NCBI RefSeq assembly: GCF_000949635.1
Contig: NZ_BAFN01000001.1
Coordinates: forward strand, 3,469,052 to 3,533,051
DNA from: Candidatus Brocadia sinica JPN1
GTDB taxonomy: Bacteria > Planctomycetota > Brocadiia > Brocadiales > Brocadiaceae
Direction: 5' to 3'
Length of the DNA: 64,000 nt
A model generated the notes under the pieces. The model did not search any database. It was not told the origin of the DNA and saw only the letters and a program-made list of their open reading frames with translations. This document shows positions 14,143 through 40,808 of the stretch, piece by piece. A program made the translations under genes and the position numbers. Positions within the stretch are counted from its first letter, which is position 1, and every line of letters starts with the position of its first letter.

Positions 14143-15363
14143 TCAGGTCTTCTTAAGTTTGTAATTGGTCTCAAAAGAATTCAACAAATCGAGATACTGC
14201 TCCACAAGACGTGTCATTAAGAATCTTTCCTTCACGGTTTCCTTTGCCTTTTTGCCCATTCTCTCCCTGAGCTTTGGATTCTTAAGGAGCTGGACAATGC
14301 GTGCCGCCGCTTCCTCGTTAGAATTTACAAGATAGCCGTTTACCCCATTCCGTATTTGATGGCGGATGCCCCCCACGTTACCGCCGATAACAGGGGTACC
14401 CTTCCACATGGCTTCTGCCACTGTGAGACCAAAGCCCTCCCGGATGGACTTCTGAAGGACGATGGCAGCACGCCGCTGGAGAGCATTCACAAGGGCGGTA
14501 TCTTGTACGCTGAGGATGATTATGCGCTCCTCGCGGTTTTTAAGGAGAGACTCAAAGATCTCCGATCCCTCAGGGTCGTCAGTCGCCACGTTACCAAGGA
14601 GCACAAGGGTGGCTTTTACCTCCCTGCGTGCAATCTTGAAAGCCTTGATAACCCCTTCGGGGTCTTTCCATCGATCAAACCGGGATATCTGCACTATGAG
14701 GGGAAGGTCAGTGGGAATATCATAGTGCTTCAGGCGTTCCTGCACCTCCGCTTCGGTGAATTCCTTGTTCTTGATGGTAAAGGGGTTAATGGCGGGAAGG
14801 AAAAAGACCTGAGGGGCGCCGAATCCTTTCTGCCGGTATTCCTTGAGGCTCAGCACAACGGCATCATATGCCCTGATGAACGGGGTAAGGTATTTAAGCA
14901 TTTCTCTGTTTGGCTCTGAGAGGTCTATGTGGCAACGCCATATCCAGGGACCGCGCTTCCGGTAATGCTTGACCATCGGGAGCGGCTGTGGGTCGTGGAC
15001 AACAACGATATCATGGTGAAGGTGGTTACGGATGGCGTTCTCGAAAACAACTTCCTCATAAATTTCCATCTTTAGTTTGGTAAGATTAATATCCGCACCC
15101 TGAAGGGCATTATGCATCTTCTTTGTGATGCTAAAGAAGTCAGGGGAACCCTGTATCACCCGCCAGCCGGTCTTGATACCAAGGCTGTTCATGAGCAGGG
15201 TCTTCGAAGAGAGCAGTTCTGCTACCCCGCCTCCGTAGTAGGTAGAGTTTATATGGGTAACATGGATATCCTTGAGTTTCGATGCCTTCTTGTATATCCG
15301 GTCCACCGCGTGTTCACCGATATAGGGTTCATAATCTTCCACCGTTATCAATTTTTGTTCCAT
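14143..15363 (-). CDS. treT: Trehalose synthase TreT-like GT4 glycosyltransferase
   Basis: 406 residues, the length of TreT, which makes trehalose from NDP-glucose and glucose. The N-terminal stretch STYYGGGVAELL and the HDPQPLP motif are characteristic. The C-terminal Rossmann domain has VQISRFDRWKDPEGVI and the GT4 donor-binding motif REGFGLTVAEAMWKGTPVIG. Trehalose is a compatible solute and reserve sugar. The gene lies 28 bases downstream of the PRC-barrel gene and so should be in the transcript controlled by the riboswitch at 16183-16314. The start codon has only a weak ribosome site, which also suggests coupling. Confidence 0.85.
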   Translation of the reverse strand: MEQKLITVEDYEPYIGEHAVDRIYKKASKLKDIHVTHINSTYYGGGVAELLSSKTLLMNSLGIKTGWRVIQGSPDFFSITKKMHNALQGADINLTKLKMEIYEEVVFENAIRNHLHHDIVVVHDPQPLPMVKHYRKRGPWIWRCHIDLSEPNREMLKYLTPFIRAYDAVVLSLKEYRQKGFGAPQVFFLPAINPFTIKNKEFTEAEVQERLKHYDIPTDLPLIVQISRFDRWKDPEGVIKAFKIARREVKATLVLLGNVATDDPEGSEIFESLLKNREERIIILSVQDTALVNALQRRAAIVLQKSIREGFGLTVAEAMWKGTPVIGGNVGGIRHQIRNGVNGYLVNSNEEAAARIVQLLKNPKLRERMGKKAKETVKERFLMTRLVEQYLDLLNSFETNYKLKKT

Positions 15364-15390: not shown

Positions 15391-16131
15391 TCAAACCCAA
15401 TACTTCGGACGGCAATAATACTCATACAATGCAATTTCGTACTCTCTGTTCACAGGGCTTGAAAGGTCGTATTCCGGGCTGTTTTTAATCATTTCCTTCG
15501 GCAAATCCACGTACACTTTTGATTCCTCCCAGCGCACTTTGTCTATCCACAGTGGTGCAATCAGTATCTTCTTACCCGGCAACCAACTTCCCGTATCGAC
15601 AACGATATATCTGACAACCCATGTTTTATCATCAACGAGGAAATCTGACACATGGCCGATTTCACCACCAATTGCATGAATGTAATAATTTTTTACTTCC
15701 CTCATGCTTCTCAGGTGTGAGTCACGTTCATCTTCCCGGTTTGAGGCCGTTTCTAGCTCCGTTTCTGAAATATGGGGAACCGGAGGAATTGTATAAGGCC
15801 CACTCGCATGCCAGTAGAGGGGCCACCCGTAATAGTTGTGCAATTCGATTTGATGCTGGCGGGAGATCGGTTTGTGTGTATCGATATCGGGGCTGTTTTT
15901 TATCTGTTCCTGGGAGAGTGCAACGGGGAAATATCGTGATTCCCATTCTGGTTGACCAAAGACTTCCGGGGATATGAGGACTTTTCGATCCAGGAGCCAG
16001 GTTTCGACATCTGCCACAAGATATCGCACCGTCCATGCCTCGTCGTCAAAAAAGAAATCATATACTTCTCCTATGTTCCCATCTTTTGCCTGGATTTTAT
16101 ATCCAGAGAGATTTTTTATATTCCTCAGCAC
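15391..16131 (-). CDS. Protein with two PRC-barrel domains
   Basis: 246 residues in two repeats, about 1-80 and 135-215. Each contains the PRC-barrel pattern IGEVYDFFFDDEAWTVRYLV (second copy IGHVSDFLVDDKTWVVRYIV) followed by LISPEVF/LIAPLWI. PRC-barrel proteins of this kind are soluble cytoplasmic proteins linked to stress and envelope adaptation. No enzymatic role is established. GTG start with GGGGG 6 bases upstream. It is the first gene after the minus-strand cyclic-di-GMP riboswitch. Confidence 0.82.
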   Translation of the reverse strand: MLRNIKNLSGYKIQAKDGNIGEVYDFFFDDEAWTVRYLVADVETWLLDRKVLISPEVFGQPEWESRYFPVALSQEQIKNSPDIDTHKPISRQHQIELHNYYGWPLYWHASGPYTIPPVPHISETELETASNREDERDSHLRSMREVKNYYIHAIGGEIGHVSDFLVDDKTWVVRYIVVDTGSWLPGKKILIAPLWIDKVRWEESKVYVDLPKEMIKNSPEYDLSSPVNREYEIALYEYYCRPKYWV

Positions 16132-16153: not shown

Positions 16154-16202
16154 AAAAAAGCCTTACCATGAAGTTGTTATAATAACATCCCGGCGGTAAG
16201 GC
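16154..16202 (-). terminator. Intrinsic terminator forming the expression platform of the minus-strand riboswitch
   Basis: On the minus strand, GCCTTACC (16195-16202) pairs with GGTAAGGC (16160-16167), with an inner TGTTAT/ATAACA helix, and is followed by six T residues. The left arm overlaps the 3' strand of the aptamer core, so terminator and ligand-bound aptamer exclude each other. It lies about 20 bases before the GTG of the PRC-barrel gene. Confidence 0.8.
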
Positions 16203-16314
16203 TATCTTTAACTCTAAGGGAGCCTGTCTCTTCTTAACCCACTTCCCTGTAAATTTAAAGACCCTTTACTTTGCGTCTCCTGATTGCTCAGGATTTGCCT
16301 TTATCGTATGTTTT
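16183..16314 (-). promoter_or_regulatory. Class I cyclic-di-GMP (GEMM-I) riboswitch aptamer upstream of the PRC-barrel/TreT genes
   Basis: Read on the minus strand, the core is AAAGGCAAATCCTGA, the GNRA loop GCAA, then TCAGGAGACGCAAAG, matching the GEMM-I P1b hairpin and the conserved GACGCAAAG. Next come GGGTCTTTAA, a variable second helix and GATAGCCTTACCGCCGG, matching the 3' core. The outer helix can form from ACAT and ATGT at the two ends. The base aligned with ligand-contacting G20 of the Vc2 structure appears to be G, which favours cyclic-di-GMP over cyclic-GMP-AMP. The plus-strand riboswitch at 32242 is nearly identical in these positions. Confidence 0.85.
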
Positions 16315-21576: not shown

Positions 21577-21774
21577 ATGAAAAGTTTAGCGAAACCTATG
21601 AAGCACCTCTCCACTTGGCTGCAGTCATTATTTGCTGAAGAAAAATTGGAGTTATTTACGGATAAGCACTTAATGTTCGGCCGAGAGTTTCCCTTGTCAT
21701 CACAAGGAACCTTACCGGCAGAGCACGTGAATTATTCCGTGGTTCTGACCGACAAGAACAAGAGCGGAACATGA
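21577..21774 (+). CDS. Small hypothetical protein preceding the exporter operon
   Basis: About 65 residues from the ATG at 21577 (AAGGA upstream), with a TTG at 21556 as an alternative. The sequence contains WLQSLFAEEKLELFTDKHLM and has no recognisable domain or signal. It overlaps the next start by 4 bases (ATGA), which suggests real translation. It might be the leftover C-terminus of a regulator or another component of the exporter operon. Confidence 0.35.
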   Translation: MKSLAKPMKHLSTWLQSLFAEEKLELFTDKHLMFGREFPLSSQGTLPAEHVNYSVVLTDKNKSGT

Positions 21775-22835
21775 CCACGCGAAAATGGCTATTGTGGACA
21801 ACAGTGATCGTGGTTGGTGTCCTTTCCTATCTCGGTTGGAAATTCTTCCAGCCCAGGAAGCTGGCAGAGGGATTTGCCAGCAGCAACGGGCGCATTGAGG
21901 CGGTGGAGATCGATATTGCCACGAAGACAGAGGGACGCATCATAGATGTTCTGGTGGACGAAGGCGACTTTGTCACCGCCGGTCAAATCCTCGCCCGCAT
22001 GGATACCGAGGTGCTCATGGCGCAACTCAGAGAAGCCAGGGCACAACTTCGCCAGGCAAGAAGCGCTGTGGAGACTGCTCAGAGCATTGTGGTGCAGCGC
22101 GAAAGCGAAAAGGCGGCAGCGCAGTCCGTGGTATTGCAGCGCGCGGCCGAACTCGATGCTGCAAAAAAGCGTTTCGCCCGCACGGAAATCCTAGTTAAAA
22201 AACAGGCCGCATCGGTGGAGGATCTCGACAATGACCGTGCCGCCTTCTACAGTGCAGAAGCGGCCGTCAATGCAGCAAAAGCGAACGTGGCGGCAGCGGA
22301 TGCCGCCATTACCACAGCCAAATCGCAGGTCATCGAATCGAAAGCGTCCGTCGAAGCCTCGAAGGCGCGGATCGAACGACTCAGGGCGGACATCGACGAT
22401 AGCGCCCTGAAGTCACCGCGTGACGGTCGGGTGCAGTATCGCATCGCCCAGCCCGGCGAGGTACTTGGCGCGGGCGGTAAAGTGCTGAACATGGTTGATC
22501 TCGCCGACGTCTATATGACCTTCTTCCTGCCTACGGCTGCGGCTGGTCGGGTCAAAATGGGGGCCGAGGTCCGGCTGGTACTCGATGCCGCTCCGCAGTA
22601 CGTCATCCCGGCCCGGGTGTCCTTCGTTGCGGACGTTGCCCAGTTTACGCCCAAGACGGTGGAGACTGCCGAGGAGCGGCAGAAGTTGATGTTCCGGATC
22701 AAGGCACAAATCGATCCGGAACTGCTTAAGCAGCATATTCGCAGCGTCAAAACCGGTTTGCCGGGAATGGCCTACGTGCGGCTTGACCCTCAGGCAGAAT
22801 GGCCTGCACATTTGGAGGTAAGACTTACGCAATGA
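21771..22835 (+). CDS. HlyD-family membrane fusion protein
   Basis: 354 residues. One N-terminal transmembrane helix (about 8-25), a lipoyl-like hairpin domain ([20 protein letters not shown] and later [16 protein letters not shown]), a long alanine-rich coiled coil (about 80-215) and a C-terminal beta domain. This is the periplasmic adaptor that joins inner-membrane ABC exporters to an outer-membrane channel. It lies ahead of an RbbA-like ATPase and an ABC-2 permease, as in the yhiI-rbbA-yhhJ order of enterobacteria. GC content is well above that of the window's core genes, as throughout this operon. Confidence 0.88.
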
Positions 22836-25690
22836 CTAACCGTGACTTGGAACCACAGATTTCACAGATTACACAGATTTGCAAAACTTCTGCAATGACC
22901 AATCGTAATTCCACTGCCAATGTCGGACAATTCGATCAGTCGCCAGTGGCGCGACTGACTGATGTCAGCCTGCGGTACGGCAAGACGCACGCCCTCAATG
23001 CCGTCAGCCTTGATCTGCCGGCCGGTCGCATGGTCGGGTTGATTGGCCCGGACGGTGTTGGCAAGTCCAGTTTGTTGTCGCTGATTGCCGGCGCCCGTCG
23101 GGTGCAGGAAGGGCGGATCGAGGTGCTCGGTGGCGATATGAGGGATGCTGGCCATCGCCAAACGGTCCAGCCACGCATCGCCTACATGCCGCAGGGTCTG
23201 GGCAAAAATCTCTATCCGACTCTGTCGGTATTCGAGAATGCAGATTTCTTTGGCTGCCTGTTTGGTCACGGCCGTGCCGAACGCGAGCGCCGCATAGTAG
23301 AACTGCTAAAAGGTACCGGTCTTGCACCCTTTTCCGGCCGTCCCGCAGGCAAGCTGTCCGGCGGCATGAAGCAGAAACTCGGCCTGTGCTGCGCGCTGAT
23401 TCACGACCCGGACCTGCTAATCCTCGATGAGCCGACCACCGGTGTCGATCCCCTCTCGCGCCGCCAGTTCTGGGAACTGATTGCCCGTATCCGTGCCAAC
23501 CGGCTTGGCATAAGCGTCCTGGTGGCGACCGCCTACATGGATGAGGCCGCGAAATTTGACTGGCTGGTTGCGATGGATGCCGGTCACGTGCTTGCCACCG
23601 GAACGCCGGGGTACCTGCTCAAGAGCACTAACACGGCATCGCTGGAAGGGGCCTTCATCGCTCTGTTGCCGGAGCAGAAGCGTCAGGGGCATAGAGAGGT
23701 AGAGATTCCTCCCCGTGCAGCGGACGGCGGCCAGGTGGCTATTGAAGCGCGGGATTTGACCAAGCGTTTTGGCAATTTTGTTGCAGTCAATCGGGTGAGC
23801 TTCCGGATCGAGCGGGGCGAGATCTTCGGATTTCTCGGCTCCAACGGCTGCGGCAAGACGACGACAATGAAGATGCTGACCGGCCTGCTGCCGTCCAGCG
23901 AGGGACAGGCCTGGCTGTTCGGCCAGAAGGTCGATGCACAGGATCTCGAAACCCGCCGGCGGGTTGGTTACATGTCCCAGGGCTTCTCGCTCTATTCCGA
24001 GTTGACAGTGCGGCAGAATCTGGTATTGCACGCACAACTGTTTCAGGTGCCGAAAGAGGAGATTCCGGAACGGGTTGGAAAAATGGTTGCGCGTTTCGGC
24101 CTCGAAAAGGTTGTGGACGCTCTACCCAACGCGCTCCCTCTGGGACAACGTCAGCGTCTGTCTCTTGCGGTGGCGTTGATCCACCAGCCCGAACTGCTGA
24201 TCCTCGACGAGCCGACTTCGGGCGTTGACCCGGTGGCACGTGATAGCTTCTGGCAGCTCCTGATCGACCTCTCTCGCCGCGACAAGGTCACCATCTTCAT
24301 CTCCACCCACTTCATCAACGAAGCCCAACGCTGCGACCGCATCTCCCTGATGCATGCCGGCCTGGTGCTGGCCAGCGACACTCCAGACGTTCTGACCGAA
24401 AAGCGGGGCGCAGACACACTGGAAGACGCCTTCATCGGCTACCTGGAAGAGGCGGCGGCCGAGGGCCAGACAAACGTTCCAGCGCCAAAGCCGAAAGCAA
24501 CGGTACCAGGCGCGCCAACGGCGGGACCAGACTCCGATCACCGGGCGGCAGTCAAAAGGTGGTTTTTTAGCGCGCGACGGATGTTGAGCTACACCAGGCG
24601 CGAGACCTTGGAACTGAGCCGCGACCCGATCCGCCTGACGCTGGCGTTGCTCGGCAGCGTGATCCTGATGTTCATCATGGGTTACGGCATTACCCTCGAC
24701 GTGGAAGACCTATCCTTCGCCGTGCTGGACCGAGACCAGACGACCGTCAGCCGCGATTACATTCTCAATATTGCCGGGTCACGTTACTTCACCGAGCAGC
24801 CGCCGATCACCGACTACGAAGAACTCGACCTGCGGATGCGGTCTGGAGAACTCAGTCTGGCCGTCGAGATTCCACCAGGCTTCGCGCGCGATCTGGGGCG
24901 CGGGACCCCGGTGCAGATCAGCGTCTGGATCGACGGCGCCATGCCGCAGCGCGCCGAAACGATCCGGGGCTACGTGAAGGGCATGCATACCCTCTGGCTC
25001 ACCGACGTGGCCAGGCGCAACCTCGGCCAGCGCGGCCTGACCAGCCCTGCCGCCATCGAGACGCGGTTCCGCTATAACCCCGATGTCAAGAGCCTGGTGG
25101 CGATGGTGCCGGCGGTGATTCCGCTGCTGCTGCTTTTGATCCCGGCCATGCTGGCAGCGCTCTCGGTGGTCCGCGAGAAGGAACTCGGCTCGATCATCAA
25201 TTTTTATGTCACGCCAACGACGCGGCTGGAATTCCTGCTCGGCAAGCAGCTCCCCTATGTGGCCCTGGGGATGCTCAATTTCCTGCTGCTCCTGGCGCTC
25301 GCGCTGATCATATTCGGGGTACCGCTGAAGGGGAGCTTTGCGGCCGAGGCCACGGGTGCGCTGTTCTATATCGTGTGCGCGACCGCGATAGGGCTGTTGA
25401 TCTCGACCTTTATGCGCAGCCAGATTGCGGCCATTTTCGGCACGGCGGTGCTCACCATGCTACCCACTATGCAGTTTTCCGGTATGATCGACCCGGTCTC
25501 CTCGCTGGAGGGCACAGGCGCCCTGATCGGGCAGATTTACCCCACCACCCATTTTCTCACGATCTCCCGCGGCACATTCTCCAAGGCACTGGGTTTTGCC
25601 GACCTGTACCGCTCGTTCATACCACTGCTGATAGCCATTCCGGTGCTGACCGGATTGTGCGCGGTACTGCTGAAGAAACAGGAGGCCTGA
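22832..25690 (+). CDS. rbbA: RbbA-like fused ABC transporter (two ATPase domains plus ABC-2 permease)
   Basis: About 952 residues from the ATG at 22832, which overlaps the HlyD stop (ATGA) and has GGAGG upstream. First ATPase: [30 protein letters not shown] and [11 protein letters not shown]. Second: [31 protein letters not shown] and [11 protein letters not shown]; its signature lacks the usual LSGG start. C-terminal ABC-2 permease (about 590-950) with six membrane segments. E. coli RbbA was described as a ribosome-associated ATPase, but its domain plan is that of an exporter. The first 30 codons contain an inserted CACAGATT-type repeat. High GC suggests transfer from a proteobacterium-like donor. 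Confidence 0.88.
22853..22881. repeat. In-frame CACAGATT tandem repeat inside the rbbA start region
   Basis: Three near-copies of ACAGATTxC (CACAGATTTCACAGATTACA then CAGATTT) lie between two similar stretches that both encode MTNR. The repeat keeps the reading frame. The same motif is a common dispersed repeat in non-coding DNA of other genomes, so its presence in a coding N-terminus is unusual. Confidence 0.6.
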
Positions 25691-25693
25691 ACC

Positions 25694-26815
25694 ATGCGCG
25701 CGGATAACATTTTGCACCTGGGCATCAAGGAACTGTGGAGCCTGGTCCGTGACCCGATGATGTTGGTCTTGATCGTCTACGCCTTCACGGCATCGATTTA
25801 CACGGCAGCCACAGCGGCGCCGGAGACGCTCCACAAGGCGCCGATCGCCATCGTGGACGAGGACCAGTCGCCGCTGTCGGCGCGCATCGTCGGCGCCTTC
25901 TATCCACCGTATTTCCTTCCACCGGCGATGATTACCCATGCCGAAATGGATGCCCGGATGGATGCCGGACTAGACACCTTCGCCCTTAATATTCCTCCCG
26001 AATTCCAGCGTGATGTGCTTGCCGGGCGCACGCCGGCGATTCAGCTCAACGTCGACGCCACCCGAGTGAGCCAGGCCTTCACCGGCAGCGGCTACGTCCA
26101 GACAATCGTTAGCCAGGAGGTGCAGGCGTTCGTGCGACGCTACCGCGCCGACACGAGACCGCCGGTTGATCTGGCGGGGCGCGTGCGCTTCAACCCCGAG
26201 TTGAACAAGTCCTGGTTCAGTGCGGTGATGCAGCTGATCGACCAGGTCACCATGCTGTCGATCGTGCTCACGGGCACAGCGCTGATCCGCGAGCGCGAGC
26301 GAGGCACAATTGAGCACCTGCTGGCGATGCCGGTGACACCGATCGAGATCATGACCGGCAAGGTCTGGGCGATGGGGCTGGTGGTGCTCGCTGCCTGCGC
26401 CTTCTCCCTGACCGTCGTCGTCCAGGGACTGCTGTCGGTCCCGATTCAGGGCTCGATCCCACTCTTCCTGTGCGGTGCCGCGCTGCACCTGTTCGCTACC
26501 ACCTCGATGGGCATCTTCATGGGCACGTTCGCACGCTCGATGCCGCAGTTCGGCCTGCTGTTGATGCTGGTACTGCTGCCGCTGCAAATGCTATCCGGCG
26601 GCTCGACCCCGCGCGAGAGCATGCCCGAGTGGGTTCAGCGGGTCATGCTGGCGGCGCCAAACACCCACTTCGTGATGCTCGCCCAGGGGATTCTGTATCG
26701 CGGGGCAGGACTCACGGTCGTATGGCCGCAATTTCTCGCGATTACCCTAATCGGCGCCATCTTCTTTAATATTGCCCTCGCACGCTTCCGCAAGACCATT
26801 GGGACGATGGTATAA
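25694..26815 (+). CDS. ABC-2 type permease (YhhJ-like)
   Basis: 373 residues. An N-terminal membrane segment, a large periplasmic domain (about 45-180; IVDEDQSPLSARIVGAFYPP) and about five C-terminal helices with LSIVLTGTALIREREGTIE-like sequence, typical of ABC-2 exporters. With RbbA and HlyD it would form a tripartite exporter; an outer-membrane channel is not encoded intact nearby. It begins 3 bases after the rbbA stop. Substrate unknown. Confidence 0.87.
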   Translation: MRADNILHLGIKELWSLVRDPMMLVLIVYAFTASIYTAATAAPETLHKAPIAIVDEDQSPLSARIVGAFYPPYFLPPAMITHAEMDARMDAGLDTFALNIPPEFQRDVLAGRTPAIQLNVDATRVSQAFTGSGYVQTIVSQEVQAFVRRYRADTRPPVDLAGRVRFNPELNKSWFSAVMQLIDQVTMLSIVLTGTALIRERERGTIEHLLAMPVTPIEIMTGKVWAMGLVVLAACAFSLTVVVQGLLSVPIQGSIPLFLCGAALHLFATTSMGIFMGTFARSMPQFGLLLMLVLLPLQMLSGGSTPRESMPEWVQRVMLAAPNTHFVMLAQGILYRGAGLTVVWPQFLAITLIGAIFFNIALARFRKTIGTMV

Positions 26816-32042: not shown

Positions 32043-32151
32043 GCTTATCCCCTTTTATCCGTGATAAATTCACATGAAGGCTGCTTGCTATCCGAATTTA
32101 GCATATTAATGAGTGCACATCAAGTTTTTTATCTCCAGTTTCAGTTTTTTC

Positions 32152-32180
32152 TTGACATGGATGTAATTATATTGTATTTA
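32152..32180 (+). promoter_or_regulatory. Sigma-70 type promoter for the riboswitch/pch-like transcript
   Basis: TTGACA (32152-32157), 17-base spacer, TATTTA (32175-32180). The predicted start falls in the tandem octamer array that follows. Same spacing and similar distance to the aptamer as the promoter at 16337-16365. Confidence 0.7.
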
Positions 32181-32220
32181 ACCCACTAACCCACTAACCC
32201 ACTAACCCACTAACCCACTA
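32181..32220. repeat. Tandem octamer array, five copies of ACCCACTA
   Basis: Five perfect head-to-tail copies of ACCCACTA, directly after the -10 element and before the riboswitch. Copy number of such arrays can vary by slippage. Here a change would alter the 5' end of the transcript. Confidence 0.9.
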
Positions 32221-32241
32221 ACTAACATTATCAATAAAAAT

Positions 32242-32356
32242 ACATCGCGATAAAGGCAAACCCTGAGCAATCAGGGGGACGCAAAGTGAAGGGTCTTTAA
32301 AATATTTTCCTGCCCTCGCAGGAAAATATAAAGATAGCCTTACTGCCGAAGATGTT
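32242..32356 (+). promoter_or_regulatory. Class I cyclic-di-GMP (GEMM-I) riboswitch aptamer upstream of the pch-like cluster
   Basis: Core AAAGGCAAACCCTGA, GNRA loop GCAA (32267-32270), TCAGGGGGACGCAAAG, then GGGTCTTTAA, a variable hairpin (ATTTTCCTGC/GCAGGAAAAT) and GATAGCCTTACTGCCGAAG. GGCAAACC, the GNRA-capped helix, GGACGCAAAG and the 3' core are the defining elements of the GEMM-I class (Vc2-type). ACATC and GATGT at the two ends can close the outer helix. The base aligned with Vc2 G20 appears to be G. It controls the transcript for the cytochrome, the Tat protein and the flavoprotein. Confidence 0.88.
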
Positions 32357-32388
32357 TTAAGAAAACATTTTTGCAGTAAGGCTTTTTT
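32337..32388 (+). terminator. Intrinsic terminator forming the expression platform of the plus-strand riboswitch
   Basis: GCCTTACTGC (32337-32346) pairs with GCAGTAAGGC (32373-32382), with an inner ATGTTTT/AAAACAT helix, followed by TTTTTT. The left arm is also the 3' strand of the aptamer core, so ligand binding should prevent the terminator and switch the genes on. Confidence 0.82.
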
Positions 32389-32517
32389 GTTTTTAGGCAA
32401 ATTATTTGCAAATTTTATTAGCTTTAGTTCAGACAGGTTTGTGTACCTGAAATCAGGCTTTTGGGGACTTTGTCGGAACAGCTAATGGAGTCCAAATCTA
32501 GAGAGAGGGGGGGCGAT

Positions 32518-32850
32518 ATGAGCCAGTTGAAACCAAAAAGCATGGCGTCAGCGATCATTCTCGGCGCACTGGTTGGAGTCGGGATATGGGCAGGTATCGC
32601 ATCGGCGATGCCTCAAGAGGGTTCCGATCGTGGGATCGTGTGGAAAGATGGGGCTGAAGTGTACGCCGGTGTTTGTGTCTATTGCCATGAACAGATGCTT
32701 CGAGGGGCGGGCGTTGATCCTGCAAAAATTCGGTATGCGGTGCGACACGGAAAAAGGGCCATGCCGGCCTTCCGGTCGACTGAAATTGACGATGCGTCAA
32801 TGGAAAAGCTTATCGAGTATCTGTCGAAAAAAGAACCGGAAATCAAGTAA
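32518..32850 (+). CDS. pchC: Small c-type cytochrome, PchC-like subunit of a p-cresol methylhydroxylase
   Basis: 110 residues from the ATG at 32518, which follows an AGGGGGGG ribosome site. An earlier frame start at 32461 lacks one. A signal peptide (about 10-30, ending near ASA) is followed by one haem-binding motif CVYCH, a KIRYAVRHGKRAMPAF stretch giving a likely axial methionine in AMPAF, and a C-terminal helix. Size and plan fit the cytochrome subunit that takes electrons from the flavoprotein PchF. The gene order (cytochrome, unknown, flavoprotein) is that of the Pseudomonas pchC-pchX-pchF cluster. Confidence 0.82.
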   Translation: MSQLKPKSMASAIILGALVGVGIWAGIASAMPQEGSDRGIVWKDGAEVYAGVCVYCHEQMLRGAGVDPAKIRYAVRHGKRAMPAFRSTEIDDASMEKLIEYLSKKEPEIK

Positions 32851-32862
32851 AGGAGGTGTTGT

Positions 32863-33738
32863 ATGGAAATCGATCGTCGAAGTCTGCTGAAGACGATATT
32901 AGTCGGGGGTGCCTTTCTGGCGGCAGGTGTGCCACTGAGGACGACGGGCGAGTCGACTGAGAAACCGCGAGGTCCTGTCCTTCTGGTTATTGGGGGGAGT
33001 CGGCGTGATGCCGCGTTCGCCACGGGGGCCCAGGCAGTAGCACGTATGGCAGGGAAAAAAACCGTACCGGTCTATAAGCTCGACGGGCGCTTTGGTCCTG
33101 ACTCTGATCTCATCTCAGCCCTGTTTTACCCACGAAGGCAGACGCGTATAATTGGAATTATGGATGACGGCATGTATACCATCTTCCATGAGTTGGTGCG
33201 CGCAGCTGATGTGTGTTTGGTGTGCCTGGGGCGACATGGGTATGGTGGGAATATGGCATTTACTCATCGTCATACGATGCTCTCGGCGTTATCCGGTCAG
33301 AGTATCGCAGCAGCTGTAGCATCACAGCTTTCATTGATTGACCAGAACTTCCTGGTATCAGAGACAGTACTCGACAACAGGTCTGCTACAAACGTAGCAG
33401 GAAACAGCACTCTGCCCGGCTTTACTTCCTACCGCGTAACAGGTGATCGCCCAGTCCGGCTGCATCTATCGGGTCTGTCCCTGAGTGAGGCTTGTGGCGT
33501 GTTTGGTCTCAGCCTAGCAAGGGTCACCCACTGTGCAACATCCGTTGTCTACCATCCGCAACGGATCGCTCCGAGCGCGAACTGGTATGAATTGTTAGGC
33601 CAAACGGTGATGCAAGCGGGAATCGGAGTGCAGCCAAGTCAGTTAACCAGTGGATCTCAAGTATTCTTGCATCGCGGTTCAGCGGTAGGGCGAATGTCTC
33701 CGGCGGAGACATTCGTGACCTTCGTCATGGACGTGTAA
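32863..33738 (+). CDS. Tat-exported protein of unknown function in the pchX position
   Basis: 291 residues. The N-terminus MEIDRRSLLKTILVGGAFLA is a twin-arginine signal. The mature part begins with an alpha/beta-like stretch (GPVLLVIGGSRRDAAFATGA) and contains LVCLGRHGYGG and HRHTMLSAL, with no cofactor motif I recognise. It lies between the cytochrome and flavoprotein genes, where pchX lies in Pseudomonas. The role of PchX is not established there either. Homology to PchX is inferred from position only. A strong AAAGGAGGTG site precedes the ATG. It may help assemble or export the flavocytochrome. Confidence 0.7.
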   Translation: MEIDRRSLLKTILVGGAFLAAGVPLRTTGESTEKPRGPVLLVIGGSRRDAAFATGAQAVARMAGKKTVPVYKLDGRFGPDSDLISALFYPRRQTRIIGIMDDGMYTIFHELVRAADVCLVCLGRHGYGGNMAFTHRHTMLSALSGQSIAAAVASQLSLIDQNFLVSETVLDNRSATNVAGNSTLPGFTSYRVTGDRPVRLHLSGLSLSEACGVFGLSLARVTHCATSVVYHPQRIAPSANWYELLGQTVMQAGIGVQPSQLTSGSQVFLHRGSAVGRMSPAETFVTFVMDV

Positions 33739-33770: not shown

Positions 33771-35315
33771 ATGGCAAGTAAATACATCACTCTGCCGAAA
33801 GGGATATCCGAAGAGGTCTTTGATGCTGCTGTGAAGGATTTCCGCCGTGTGCTCGGTGAGGCCTCCGTACTCACAAACGCCGAACAAATTGCGCCATATA
33901 CTAAGATTATGATGTCGGTACCGGAGTCGAACCACACACCCTCCGCAGCGATCATTGCACAGTCGGTGGAACAGATTCAGGAAATTCTCGCCATTTGCAA
34001 TAAGTACAAGGTGCCGATTTGGCCCATCTCGACCGGGAAAAATCTGGGTTATGGCTCTGCGGCTCCGGCTGAGCGCGGTCAGGTTGTGCTCGATCTCAAA
34101 CGGATGAATCGCATCCTTGAAGTCGATCCGGACCTGTGCTTCGCTCTCGTCGAGCCCGGAGTCACGTACAAGCAGCTCTACGACTACATCCATGAGCACA
34201 ACTACCCCTTATGGTTGTCCGTGCCGGCTTCGTCTGCGATTGCCGGGCCGATCGGCAATACGCTGGATCGTGGCGTCGGGTACACCCCGTATGGAGAACA
34301 TTTCCTCTTCGCCTGCGGCATGGAGGTGGTCCTGCCGAACGGCGAGGTGTTACGAACCGGCATGGGATCGATACCGAAGTCCAGTACGTGGCAGGTCTTC
34401 AAGTGGGGCTACGGACCTTATCTGGACGGGATCTTTACCCAGTCCAACTACGGCATTGTTACCAAATTAGGCTTCTGGCTCATGCCGGCGCCCCCCGTTT
34501 ATAAACCTTTTGCCATTCAATATGAGCGTGAGGATGACATCGTGGAGATCGTGGAGACGATCCGTCCGCTACGAATCGGAAACGTGATCCCCAACGCCGT
34601 CGTTATCGCCCATGCGCTGTATGATGCGCCGGTGAAGGCCAAACGGAGTGATTATGTGACCGGACCGGGAGCGATCACCGATGAGGCGGTGCAGCGTATT
34701 ATGAAGGATCACAAGCTTGGAGCGTGGAACGTCTATGCGGCCCTCTACGGCACGTTGGAACAAATCGAGGTGAACTGGAAAATCGTGACGGAGTCCTTCG
34801 GGAAATCCGGAAAGGCGAAGATCCTGACGGAAAAAGAGGCGAACGGAGACCCGGCCTTCGAGTACCGTGCTGCCCTAATGCGCGGCGACATGAACCTCAC
34901 GGAATTCAGACTCTACAACTGGCGGGGAGGGGGCGGATCAATGTGGTTTGCGCCGGTTTCCCAGGCCCGCGGCAGTGAGTCATTGAAGCAGATGGCGATG
35001 GCCAAGCGTATTCTGGGCAAGTACGGACTGGATTACTCCGGGGAATTCATTGTCGGTATGCGCGATATGCATCACGTCATCGATGTGTTGTATGACCGGA
35101 CTGATCCTGATCAGATGAAAGCCGGACACGACTGTTTTAACGAGCTGTTACGTACGTTCGCCGCAGAGGGGTATGCGGTGTATCGGGTCAACACCGCCTT
35201 CATGGACACGGTGGCGCACACCTATGGTCCGGTGCAACGACAGGTCCACCAGACGCTCAAAAAGGCTCTGGATCCCAATGGGATTATTGCGCCGGGGAAG
35301 TCTGGCATCCGATAG
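33771..35315 (+). CDS. pchF: 4-cresol dehydrogenase (p-cresol methylhydroxylase) flavoprotein subunit
   Basis: 514 residues, close to PchF in length and collinear with it. Highly conserved blocks include YTKIMMSVPESNHTPSAA, PIWPISTGKNLGYGSAAP, TLDRGVGYTPYGEHFLF and LYNWRGGGGSMWFAPVS. Tyr382 in the last block aligns with Tyr384 of P. putida PchF, the covalent FAD attachment site, and GYAVYRVNT holds the active-site Tyr-Arg pair. The enzyme oxidises and hydrates the methyl group of p-cresol, giving 4-hydroxybenzyl alcohol and then the aldehyde, and passes electrons to the cytochrome. No signal peptide is seen, as in the Pseudomonas protein. The true substrate could be another para-alkylphenol. 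Confidence 0.9.
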   Translation: MASKYITLPKGISEEVFDAAVKDFRRVLGEASVLTNAEQIAPYTKIMMSVPESNHTPSAAIIAQSVEQIQEILAICNKYKVPIWPISTGKNLGYGSAAPAERGQVVLDLKRMNRILEVDPDLCFALVEPGVTYKQLYDYIHEHNYPLWLSVPASSAIAGPIGNTLDRGVGYTPYGEHFLFACGMEVVLPNGEVLRTGMGSIPKSSTWQVFKWGYGPYLDGIFTQSNYGIVTKLGFWLMPAPPVYKPFAIQYEREDDIVEIVETIRPLRIGNVIPNAVVIAHALYDAPVKAKRSDYVTGPGAITDEAVQRIMKDHKLGAWNVYAALYGTLEQIEVNWKIVTESFGKSGKAKILTEKEANGDPAFEYRAALMRGDMNLTEFRLYNWRGGGGSMWFAPVSQARGSESLKQMAMAKRILGKYGLDYSGEFIVGMRDMHHVIDVLYDRTDPDQMKAGHDCFNELLRTFAAEGYAVYRVNTAFMDTVAHTYGPVQRQVHQTLKKALDPNGIIAPGKSGIR

Positions 35316-35696: not shown

Positions 35697-36746
35697 ATGA
35701 AGGCAATAGTCTATCACGGTCCGGGCAAACGGAGCTGGGAGGAAAAACCTAAACCTGCAATCACGGCTTCTTCTGATGCGATCGTCAGAATCCAGAAAAC
35801 CACGATTTGCGGGACGGATCTGCATATCCTGAAGGGTGACGTACCAACCGTCACGGATGGAAGGATATTAGGGCATGAGGGGATTGGGGTTGTGGATGAA
35901 GTGGGAAATGGTGTAATGAATTTCCAGGCAGGCGACAAGGTCTTGATCTCCTGCATAACATCGTGCGGGAAGTGTGAGTACTGCCGAAAGGGAATGTATT
36001 CTCATTGCCATAACGGGGGATGGATCCTGGGGAATACGATTGATGGAACCCAGGCAGAGTATGTGAGAATCCCCTTTGCCGACACCAGTCTGTATCCCGT
36101 CCCGCCCGGTGCAGATGACGAGGCCCTGCTCATGCTGAGCGACATCCTTCCCACCGGATTTGAGTGCGGCGTGATCAATGGCCAGGTGAGTCCGGGTGAC
36201 ACAGTTGCCGTTGTGGGAGCCGGCCCCGTAGGACTGGCAGTGCTCCTGACGTCCCAGCTTTACTCGCCATCCGAAATCATCATGATTGATGTGGATGACA
36301 ACCGCCTGGAGGTCGCCAAAAGACTCGGGGCAACAAAGACGATCAACAGCAGCGATGGAAAAGCGACCCGGAGGGTGATGGAGCTCACACTCAACAGGGG
36401 CGTGAATGTGGCGATCGAGGCGGTAGGAATCCCGGTCACCTTCGACCTCTGCCAGGAGATCGTGGCGCCGGGTGGACATATCGCCAACGTCGGCGTACAC
36501 GGAAAGAGCGTGAACCTGAAGCTGGAGAAGCTTTGGGACCATAACATTACGTTGACGACACGTTTGGTTGACACCGTGACCACGCCGATGCTTTTGAAGC
36601 TTGTTCAAGCCGGACGGCTGAAAGCCAAGGACTTGATCACGCACCGGTTCCGCATCGAGGAGATCATGAAGGCCTACGACACGTTTGGAAACGCTGCGAA
36701 GGAGAAGGCGTTGAAAGTGGTTTTAGACTCAGGAGGAACACGATGA
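35697..36746 (+). CDS. Zinc-dependent medium-chain alcohol dehydrogenase
   Basis: 349 residues from the ATG at 35697 with AAAGGAGG upstream. The frame runs open to 35643 without a site. Catalytic zinc residues are in TTICGTDLHI (Cys38) and GHEGIG. The structural-zinc cysteines are in CGKCEYCRKGMYSHC and the NAD(P)-binding motif is VGAGPVGLAVLL. It oxidises an alcohol or reduces an aldehyde. Its place 0.4 kb after pchF suggests it might act on 4-hydroxybenzyl alcohol, but it lies beyond an inverted-repeat element and may be a separate unit. Confidence 0.88.
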   Translation: MKAIVYHGPGKRSWEEKPKPAITASSDAIVRIQKTTICGTDLHILKGDVPTVTDGRILGHEGIGVVDEVGNGVMNFQAGDKVLISCITSCGKCEYCRKGMYSHCHNGGWILGNTIDGTQAEYVRIPFADTSLYPVPPGADDEALLMLSDILPTGFECGVINGQVSPGDTVAVVGAGPVGLAVLLTSQLYSPSEIIMIDVDDNRLEVAKRLGATKTINSSDGKATRRVMELTLNRGVNVAIEAVGIPVTFDLCQEIVAPGGHIANVGVHGKSVNLKLEKLWDHNITLTTRLVDTVTTPMLLKLVQAGRLKAKDLITHRFRIEEIMKAYDTFGNAAKEKALKVVLDSGGTR

Positions 36747-39935: not shown

Positions 39936-40361
39936 CGCGTAATGGATAAAATATTTGATAATAAAGACAGGGAAAAGTTTCTGAAGATATTAAGAAGAAC
40001 AAAGGCGAGGTATGGCTAGCTCCTCCACGCATAAGTCTTAATGGGAAACCACTATCATCTTTTTCTGGAAACACCAAAGGCTAATATCTCTCAGATCATG
40101 CAGAATGTTAACAAAAAGGAAGAGGAGTTACTGAGAAAAGGGAAGGGAAAAAGGGAAAGACAAGCAGCGATATATGTATCAAAAATCATGAGTAATGCTA
40201 AGAATACAGAAATTGGGAGGTATTTTGGCATACAAGGGTCAACAGTAAGTGAAGCTCTTAAGAGAATAGAAAACAGGATAAAAAGAGAAGGTAAATTCAG
40301 GAAAGAAATCGAAGTATTAAAAAACAATTCGTTATTGAATAATGAAGGTTTGACCCAGTGA
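39936..40361 (+). pseudogene. Decayed REP-associated tyrosine transposase, copy 3
   Basis: Pieces of one transposase in order: an N-terminal MDKIFDNKDREKFLKILRR stretch, a stop, the catalytic HUH-type motif MGNHYHLFLETPKANIS in another frame, then an internal deletion straight into the C-terminal helix-turn-helix part KKEEELLRKGKGKRERQ. A single-base deletion near 40325 changes the last residues. Part of this sequence overlaps nothing else. It shows what the other fragments derive from. Confidence 0.75.
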
Positions 40362-40379
40362 CCCTCCAAAGAGTTTGTC

Positions 40380-40808
40380 ATGGAAGGCATGGGGGAAAGA
40401 AATAATCCCCTGGACGATGTGGTAGCTGGAGTTCTCCTCGGCAGTGAAATGTTCGTAGCACAAATAAGGAGGATGTTACAGAGACGAAAACCCGATGAAG
40501 AGATTCCTCAGTTGAAAAAACTCCGGGAAATAATTCCTATAGAGAAAGTTATCAAAGGTTGTTGTAAGTATTACGGCAAAAAGGAAGAGGAGTTACTGAG
40601 AAAAGGGAAGGGAAAAAGGGAAAGACAAGCAGCGATATATGTATCAAAAATCATGAGTAATGCGAAGAATACAGAAATTGGGAGGTATTTTGGCATACAA
40701 GGGTCAACAGTAAGTGAAGCTCTTAAGAGAGTAGAAACCAGGATAAAAAGAGAAGGTAAATTCAGGAAAGAACTCGAAGTGTTAAAAAAACAATTCGTTA
40801 TTGAATAA
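40380..40808 (+). pseudogene. C-terminal part of a REP-associated tyrosine transposase, copy 4
   Basis: 142 open codons, the longest copy: GERNNPLDDVVAGVLLGSEM, then LKKLREIIPIEKVIKGCCKY and the shared helix-turn-helix tail ending KKQFVIE. No catalytic histidines. It could still make a small DNA-binding protein from the ATG at 40380, but no ribosome site is clear. It is followed by the same TGAAGGTTTGACCCCGTGAC tail as copies 1-3. Confidence 0.65.

Follow-up and report, generated by a model that had tools for sequence, protein, structure and literature searches.

A predicted c-di-GMP ON riboswitch ahead of a p-cresol methylhydroxylase-type operon, from a set of about 58 in Candidatus Brocadia sinica

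The window analyzed in this work is a stretch of 64,000 nucleotides from Candidatus Brocadia sinica JPN1, whose genome carries two hydrazine synthase alpha genes, identifying the host as an anammox planctomycete. Two riboswitches lie in the window, one of them followed by genes of the p-cresol methylhydroxylase (PCMH) type. The features considered here are as follows.

32152-32180, plus strand: putative promoter, TTGACA (32152-32157), 17-nt spacer and TATTTA (32175-32180), from the sequence and the comparison of copies
32179-32222, plus strand: octamer array, TAACCCAC x5.5 (TRF), predicted G-less 5' leader in the promoter-to-aptamer interval
32246-32351, plus strand: c-di-GMP-I (GEMM-I) aptamer, from RF03167 and RF01051 scores, with G20 at 32255, A47 at 32283 and C92 at 32346
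32301-32330, plus strand: P3-loop insert forming a hairpin, AUAUUUUCCUGC-CCUC-GCAGGAAAAUAU, from folds
32336-32388, plus strand: intrinsic terminator, left arm 32336-32346, right arm 32373-32383, U run 32383-32388
32518-32850, plus strand: exported c-type cytochrome, encoded by the gene next to the switch, in a PchC-like position (PF13442, E 2e-13)
32863-33738, plus strand: p291, conserved protein with a Tat-like N-terminus, between the cytochrome c gene and pchF
33771-35315, plus strand: PchF-like flavoprotein, a member of the p-cresol methylhydroxylase family (1dii/1diq, E 2.3e-230)
35697-36746, plus strand: Zn-dependent alcohol dehydrogenase, likely the last gene of the cassette (PF08240/PF00107)
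16188-16308, minus strand: second riboswitch (RF03167, 60.3 bits)

The initial annotation had read the genes downstream of the first switch as a PCMH-like cluster, and this was borne out. PchF aligns to 1dii over almost its entire length (E 2.3e-230) and, with residues counted on that alignment, keeps the FAD-linking Tyr384 together with the active-site residues Tyr95, Glu380, Glu427, Tyr473 and Arg474. The c-type cytochrome that partners p-cresol methylhydroxylase is present as the PF13442 protein at 32518-32850. No Pfam or NCBIfam match was obtained for p291, a homologue of which occurs in 52 of 80 pchF loci; its family is conserved between the cytochrome c and pchF genes in nitrifiers and betaproteobacteria. 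The cytochrome c, p291, PchF and alcohol dehydrogenase genes form a genuine PCMH-type operon.

Covariance models place the aptamer at 32246-32351 on the plus strand, with 64.0 bits against RF03167 (E 8.4e-13, cut-off 59) and 60.9 bits against RF01051. A GEMM-I core had been proposed from individual sequence pieces, all of which were found where they had been reported, and the class I model supports the assignment with a score above its cut-off of 35 bits. Alignment to RF03167 places G20, A47 and C92, the ligand pocket of RF01051, in the window aptamer, and from these three residues the predicted ligand is c-di-GMP and not cGAMP. Because P1 is short, ligand binding may be weak. Overall, the window RNA is a genuine and probably functional c-di-GMP ON switch. 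Its P3-loop insert resembles those of two other copies in the genome (C1:246423 and C1:3830788). The P3 loops of many copies hold dispersed repeats, either palindromic runs rich in GTTTAAAC or a TATTTTCCTGC hairpin that recurs among them. The P3 loop of these aptamers looks as if it were a tolerated insertion site.

A search of the genome (4.077 Mb, 3 contigs) gave 58 matches to RF03167, 34 of them above the cut-off, and 56 to RF01051, 55 of them above it. Neither this genome-wide set nor the second aptamer of the window had been noticed in the initial annotation. The sequence covered around the copies amounts to 348,750 bases of contig C1. G20 is present in 57 of the 58 copies, and so is A47. 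The set comprises two types of aptamer: a classical one, mostly without an embedded terminator, and the terminator-embedding type of the window, which is found in other anammox genera as well. Riboswitch matches were obtained in all 33 genomes surveyed in the family, with 20-45 copies per genome in other members of the genus and 1-28 in other genera of the family. Among planctomycetes sampled beyond the anammox family, the count is 0-3 per genome; the phylum survey scored 21 candidates per genome, so that its anammox counts are lower bounds. About 58 copies in one genome is an unusual number; 17 GEMM-I RNAs are reported in Geobacter sulfurreducens (PMC6456294).

Comparison between copies also bears on the promoter. 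The promoter proposed earlier does lie at 32152-32180, and its TTGACA box is enriched ahead of the copies, but as a single site TTGACA-17-TATTTA did not rise above chance in a sigma-70 scan. TTGACA occurs within 150 nt upstream of 29 of the 58 copies (3.8 expected), and TTGACA-N15-19-TAnnnT upstream of 16 (0.5 expected); copies that bear an array, both in B. sinica and in two congeners, have this promoter layout as well. We therefore accept the promoter on the comparison between copies and not on its single-site score. The octamer array that follows it, perfect over 32179-32222, had been overlooked. Arrays of the (A/C)CACTAAC type occur at only two sites in the B. sinica genome, each just upstream of a riboswitch and differing in repeat number (the second lies at G000:C1:3355165-3355260). 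Among the 33 family genomes searched, one congener, G008, has three further arrays of this type (C51, C154 and C98), of which two run straight into an aptamer and the third continues to the point where the retrieved sequence breaks off. In another congener, G006 (C62), 7-nt units (ACACACT) make up a comparable array, likewise between promoter and aptamer. The G-less, C-rich leader may, speculatively, resemble a Rho loading site.

Counterparts of the PCMH cassette are found in nitrifiers. In Nitrospira, Nitrosomonas, Nitrosospira and Nitrotoga, PchF is 77-83% identical to that of the window, and cytochrome c and p291 homologues lie upstream of pchF, with a dehydrogenase downstream in most loci. 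The cassette (cytochrome c, p291, pchF and often alcohol dehydrogenase) is widespread in nitrifiers, which are autotrophs. In the window its GC content is 0.52-0.55, against about 0.36-0.45 across much of the surrounding sequence, and the riboswitch patch that adjoins it has 0.29-0.44. All ten congeners lack the cassette; among the 62 genomes of the order, B. sinica alone has it, and the others gave just one distant match at 39%. Ten PCMH loci from nitrifiers and related organisms gave no Rfam match, nor did the corresponding locus of congener G005, which has the neighboring glycogen phosphorylase gene and neither riboswitch nor PCMH; homology to it stops at 32075, a short way before the promoter. 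A conserved riboswitch-PCMH pairing was thus rejected, given one genome in 62 and nitrifier loci with no switch, and the GC-rich cassette with its nitrifier gene order points to a single-species event. Most simply read, switch and cassette would have come together once, through horizontal acquisition and rearrangement. Searching the open literature, with most subscription papers outside its reach, we found no paper joining anammox and p-cresol methylhydroxylase.

Elsewhere in this part of the window, two related ORFs at 40041-40808, which by their sequence resemble REP-associated transposase/DnaA-like fragments, lie at the right edge of a GC-rich segment of about 21.5-40 kb. An ABC exporter block at 21771-26815 (membrane fusion protein and ABC2 subunits), beside glycogen genes, is common to congener G005, where its relative orientation is opposite.

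The position of the switch makes c-di-GMP control of the PCMH operon plausible, but comparison between genomes lends it no support. Since the pairing is seen in one genome only, selection for it cannot be shown, and the riboswitch might be real but irrelevant to PCMH: the cassette would use a promoter of its own past the terminator, perhaps between 32390 and 32517, and the switch would be left over from the rearrangement. The rarity of the pairing in the order fits this reading, as do the step in GC content between switch and cassette, the end of homology at 32075 and the 129 nt that separate the terminator from the start of the cytochrome gene at 32518. However, a sigma-70 scan of 32389-32517 revealed no promoter, no plus-strand terminator lies in that interval, and the stretch leading from the U run to the cytochrome gene does not convincingly match the upstream DNA of nitrifiers. 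We regard an independent promoter as unlikely, though far from negligible.

How the switch would act is suggested by its terminator, in which AGCCUUACUGC (32336-32346) pairs with GCAGUAAGGCU (32373-32383) ahead of the U run. The hairpin has a free energy of -27.9 kcal/mol (z -8.4), equalled by none of 200 shuffles, and the minimum-energy fold of the full-length RNA contains it too. That its left arm lies inside the aptamer had been seen correctly: 32336-32346 is the 3' strand of the aptamer, C92 included, and the sharing of this strand gives the aptamer-coupled expression platform expected of RF01051. In a contiguous-helix test, at least 10 contiguous pairs between the aptamer 3' strand and a downstream strand, together with a T tract, were found in 50 of the 58 copies, compared with 1.2% of shuffles. 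The helix varies little among copies; three compensatory double changes preserve its pairing, one of them in the second copy of the window (16188-16308), where U-A is replaced by C-G relative to other copies.

The terminator cannot form without the C92 strand of the aptamer, so that the two structures are mutually exclusive, and an ON switch is predicted. Transcription would start near 32185 and proceed through the octamer leader into the aptamer. With the ligand absent, the AGCCUUACUGC strand and its ligand-pairing C92 would be captured by the downstream GCAGUAAGGCU, and RNA polymerase would halt at the U run (32383-32388). With c-di-GMP bound through G20, A47 and C92, the AGCCUUACUGC strand would be retained in the aptamer, the terminator blocked and the downstream operon transcribed. 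In the ON switch of Geobacter pilM, binding is lost as the ligand-pairing C becomes sequestered (PMC9262584). Certain GEMM-I switches are OFF switches, such as Cd1 (PMC9262584), and a few degenerate copies exist in the B. sinica genome, but at this locus aptamer and terminator compete for one C92 strand and cannot coexist, and the folds revealed no alternative anti-terminator partner. An OFF or decayed switch is accordingly very improbable.

Both c-di-GMP and cGAMP had been named as possible ligands in the initial annotation; the first is supported by G20, A47 and C92, and the second is made unlikely by G20 and by the genome's GGDEF proteins. A GEMM-Ib aptamer sensing 3',3'-cGAMP requires A20. 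The window RNA shares the ON architecture of Geobacter pilM, but has G at 32255, as do 57 of the 58 copies, and position 20 is a selectivity factor (PMC9262584). Enzymes of the Hypr type, which make cGAMP, have Ser at the Asp position of GHxxGD (PMC6456294), whereas among the 17 GGDEF matches in the genome the motif, with the Asp of diguanylate cyclases, is kept in all 13 in which it is readable. We therefore rejected a cGAMP/Hypr ligand and give a Geobacter-like reading hardly any weight. A c-di-GMP-I-GGC variant with a changed ligand is scarcely credible either: RF03167 outscores RF01051 at the site (64.0 versus 60.9 bits), but its consensus has G where the window RNA has A47 (32283), A47 recurs in 57 of the 58 copies, and 55 copies pass the cut-off by RF01051 alone. 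We infer that "GGC" in the name of RF03167 denotes letters 20, 47 and 92; A47 rules out taking the label at face value, and, as the hallmark G is lacking, the RNA is filed under c-di-GMP-I.

Taken together, we consider it quite probable that the RNA is a class I c-di-GMP transcriptional ON riboswitch, one of about 58 in an anammox-specific expansion, lying ahead of a horizontally acquired PCMH cassette that joined an otherwise typical surface- and biofilm-type regulon. The first genes downstream of the 58 copies include those for LamG/Ig, beta-helix, SBBP beta-propeller, RHS, RCC1, DUF11, PKD and kelch proteins, UDP-sugar pyrophosphorylase, an ABC-2 exporter, amidases, two sigma-54 activators, a PAS-GGDEF protein, a contractile tail sheath, a caspase-fold protein and cytochrome c'. 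These targets point to a surface and biofilm regulon with feedback on c-di-GMP synthesis; most look like typical c-di-GMP outputs, being surface, matrix or regulatory genes, with a diguanylate cyclase among them, and the PCMH operon is the outlier. The second riboswitch of the window precedes a PRC-barrel gene (16131..15391, minus strand, Pfam PRC) and one for a TreT-like glycosyltransferase/trehalose synthase (15363..14143, minus strand, Pfam TreT_GT1).

Several individual copies deserve mention. In a divergent copy at G000:C1:2104850, upstream of a response regulator-PAS-GAF-GGDEF gene, C92 is replaced by U and the terminator is compensated; its choice of ligand may be altered, or it may feed back on the synthesis of c-di-GMP. 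At G000:C1:1907295 and 1909803, 2.5 kb from each other, lie two riboswitches, the one ahead of a sigma-54 response regulator and the other ahead of a contractile tail sheath cluster. Another, at G000:C1:1636534, is followed by genes for a histidine phosphatase and for a second glycogen phosphorylase, a hint that c-di-GMP may control storage carbon.

Studies cited in PMC8851195 and PMC11224092 tie c-di-GMP to anammox aggregation. No paper naming direct c-di-GMP targets in anammox was found in the open literature. The roughly 58 cis-acting switches and the genes downstream of them form a testable regulon, even though the organism has no ready genetics, since the RNAs can be assayed in vitro. Their number could account for the linkage of aggregation to gene control in these bacteria. 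In the PCMH case a foreign metabolic operon is positioned under a switch, possibly an instance of regulatory capture after gene transfer. More tentatively, and with rather less confidence than doubt, we propose that the genus runs a genome-wide c-di-GMP network through 20-60 near-identical modules (A-rich leader, aptamer, embedded terminator), maybe the largest single-class set per genome; such modules would spread through the genome and bring new genes under their control, the imported PCMH operon being the case in the window, and the variable-number G-less octamer arrays of some could tune the response.

The element itself is a riboswitch of an already known kind; the novelty is in the scale of the network, which appears to be undescribed in anammox in the open literature searched: no paper on anammox and c-di-GMP riboswitches was found, most subscription papers being outside the search. 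Compared with PchCF (1dii) and the PCMH cassette of nitrifiers, the window operon has the same order of cytochrome c, p291, pchF and dehydrogenase and differs in carrying a riboswitch, which the scanned nitrifier loci lack. RF03167 (c-di-GMP-I-GGC) is the best-scoring Rfam family for the window RNA, which nevertheless departs from its consensus in having no G at the A47 position. With the pilM-type GEMM-Ib RNAs of Geobacter it shares a terminator that sequesters the ligand-pairing C, and ON logic, and the anammox host, like G. sulfurreducens with its 17 GEMM-I RNAs (PMC6456294), carries such RNAs in large number; the window RNA differs in having G20 in place of A20, so that c-di-GMP is predicted, and in the number of copies, about 58. 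Finally, the core sequence, the two-stem fold and G20, A47 and C92 are common to the window RNA and the RF01051 switches Vc2 and Cd1; unlike these, it belongs to a large anammox set with a near-fixed 3' strand, a built-in terminator and variable P3 inserts, and its target is a PCMH operon.
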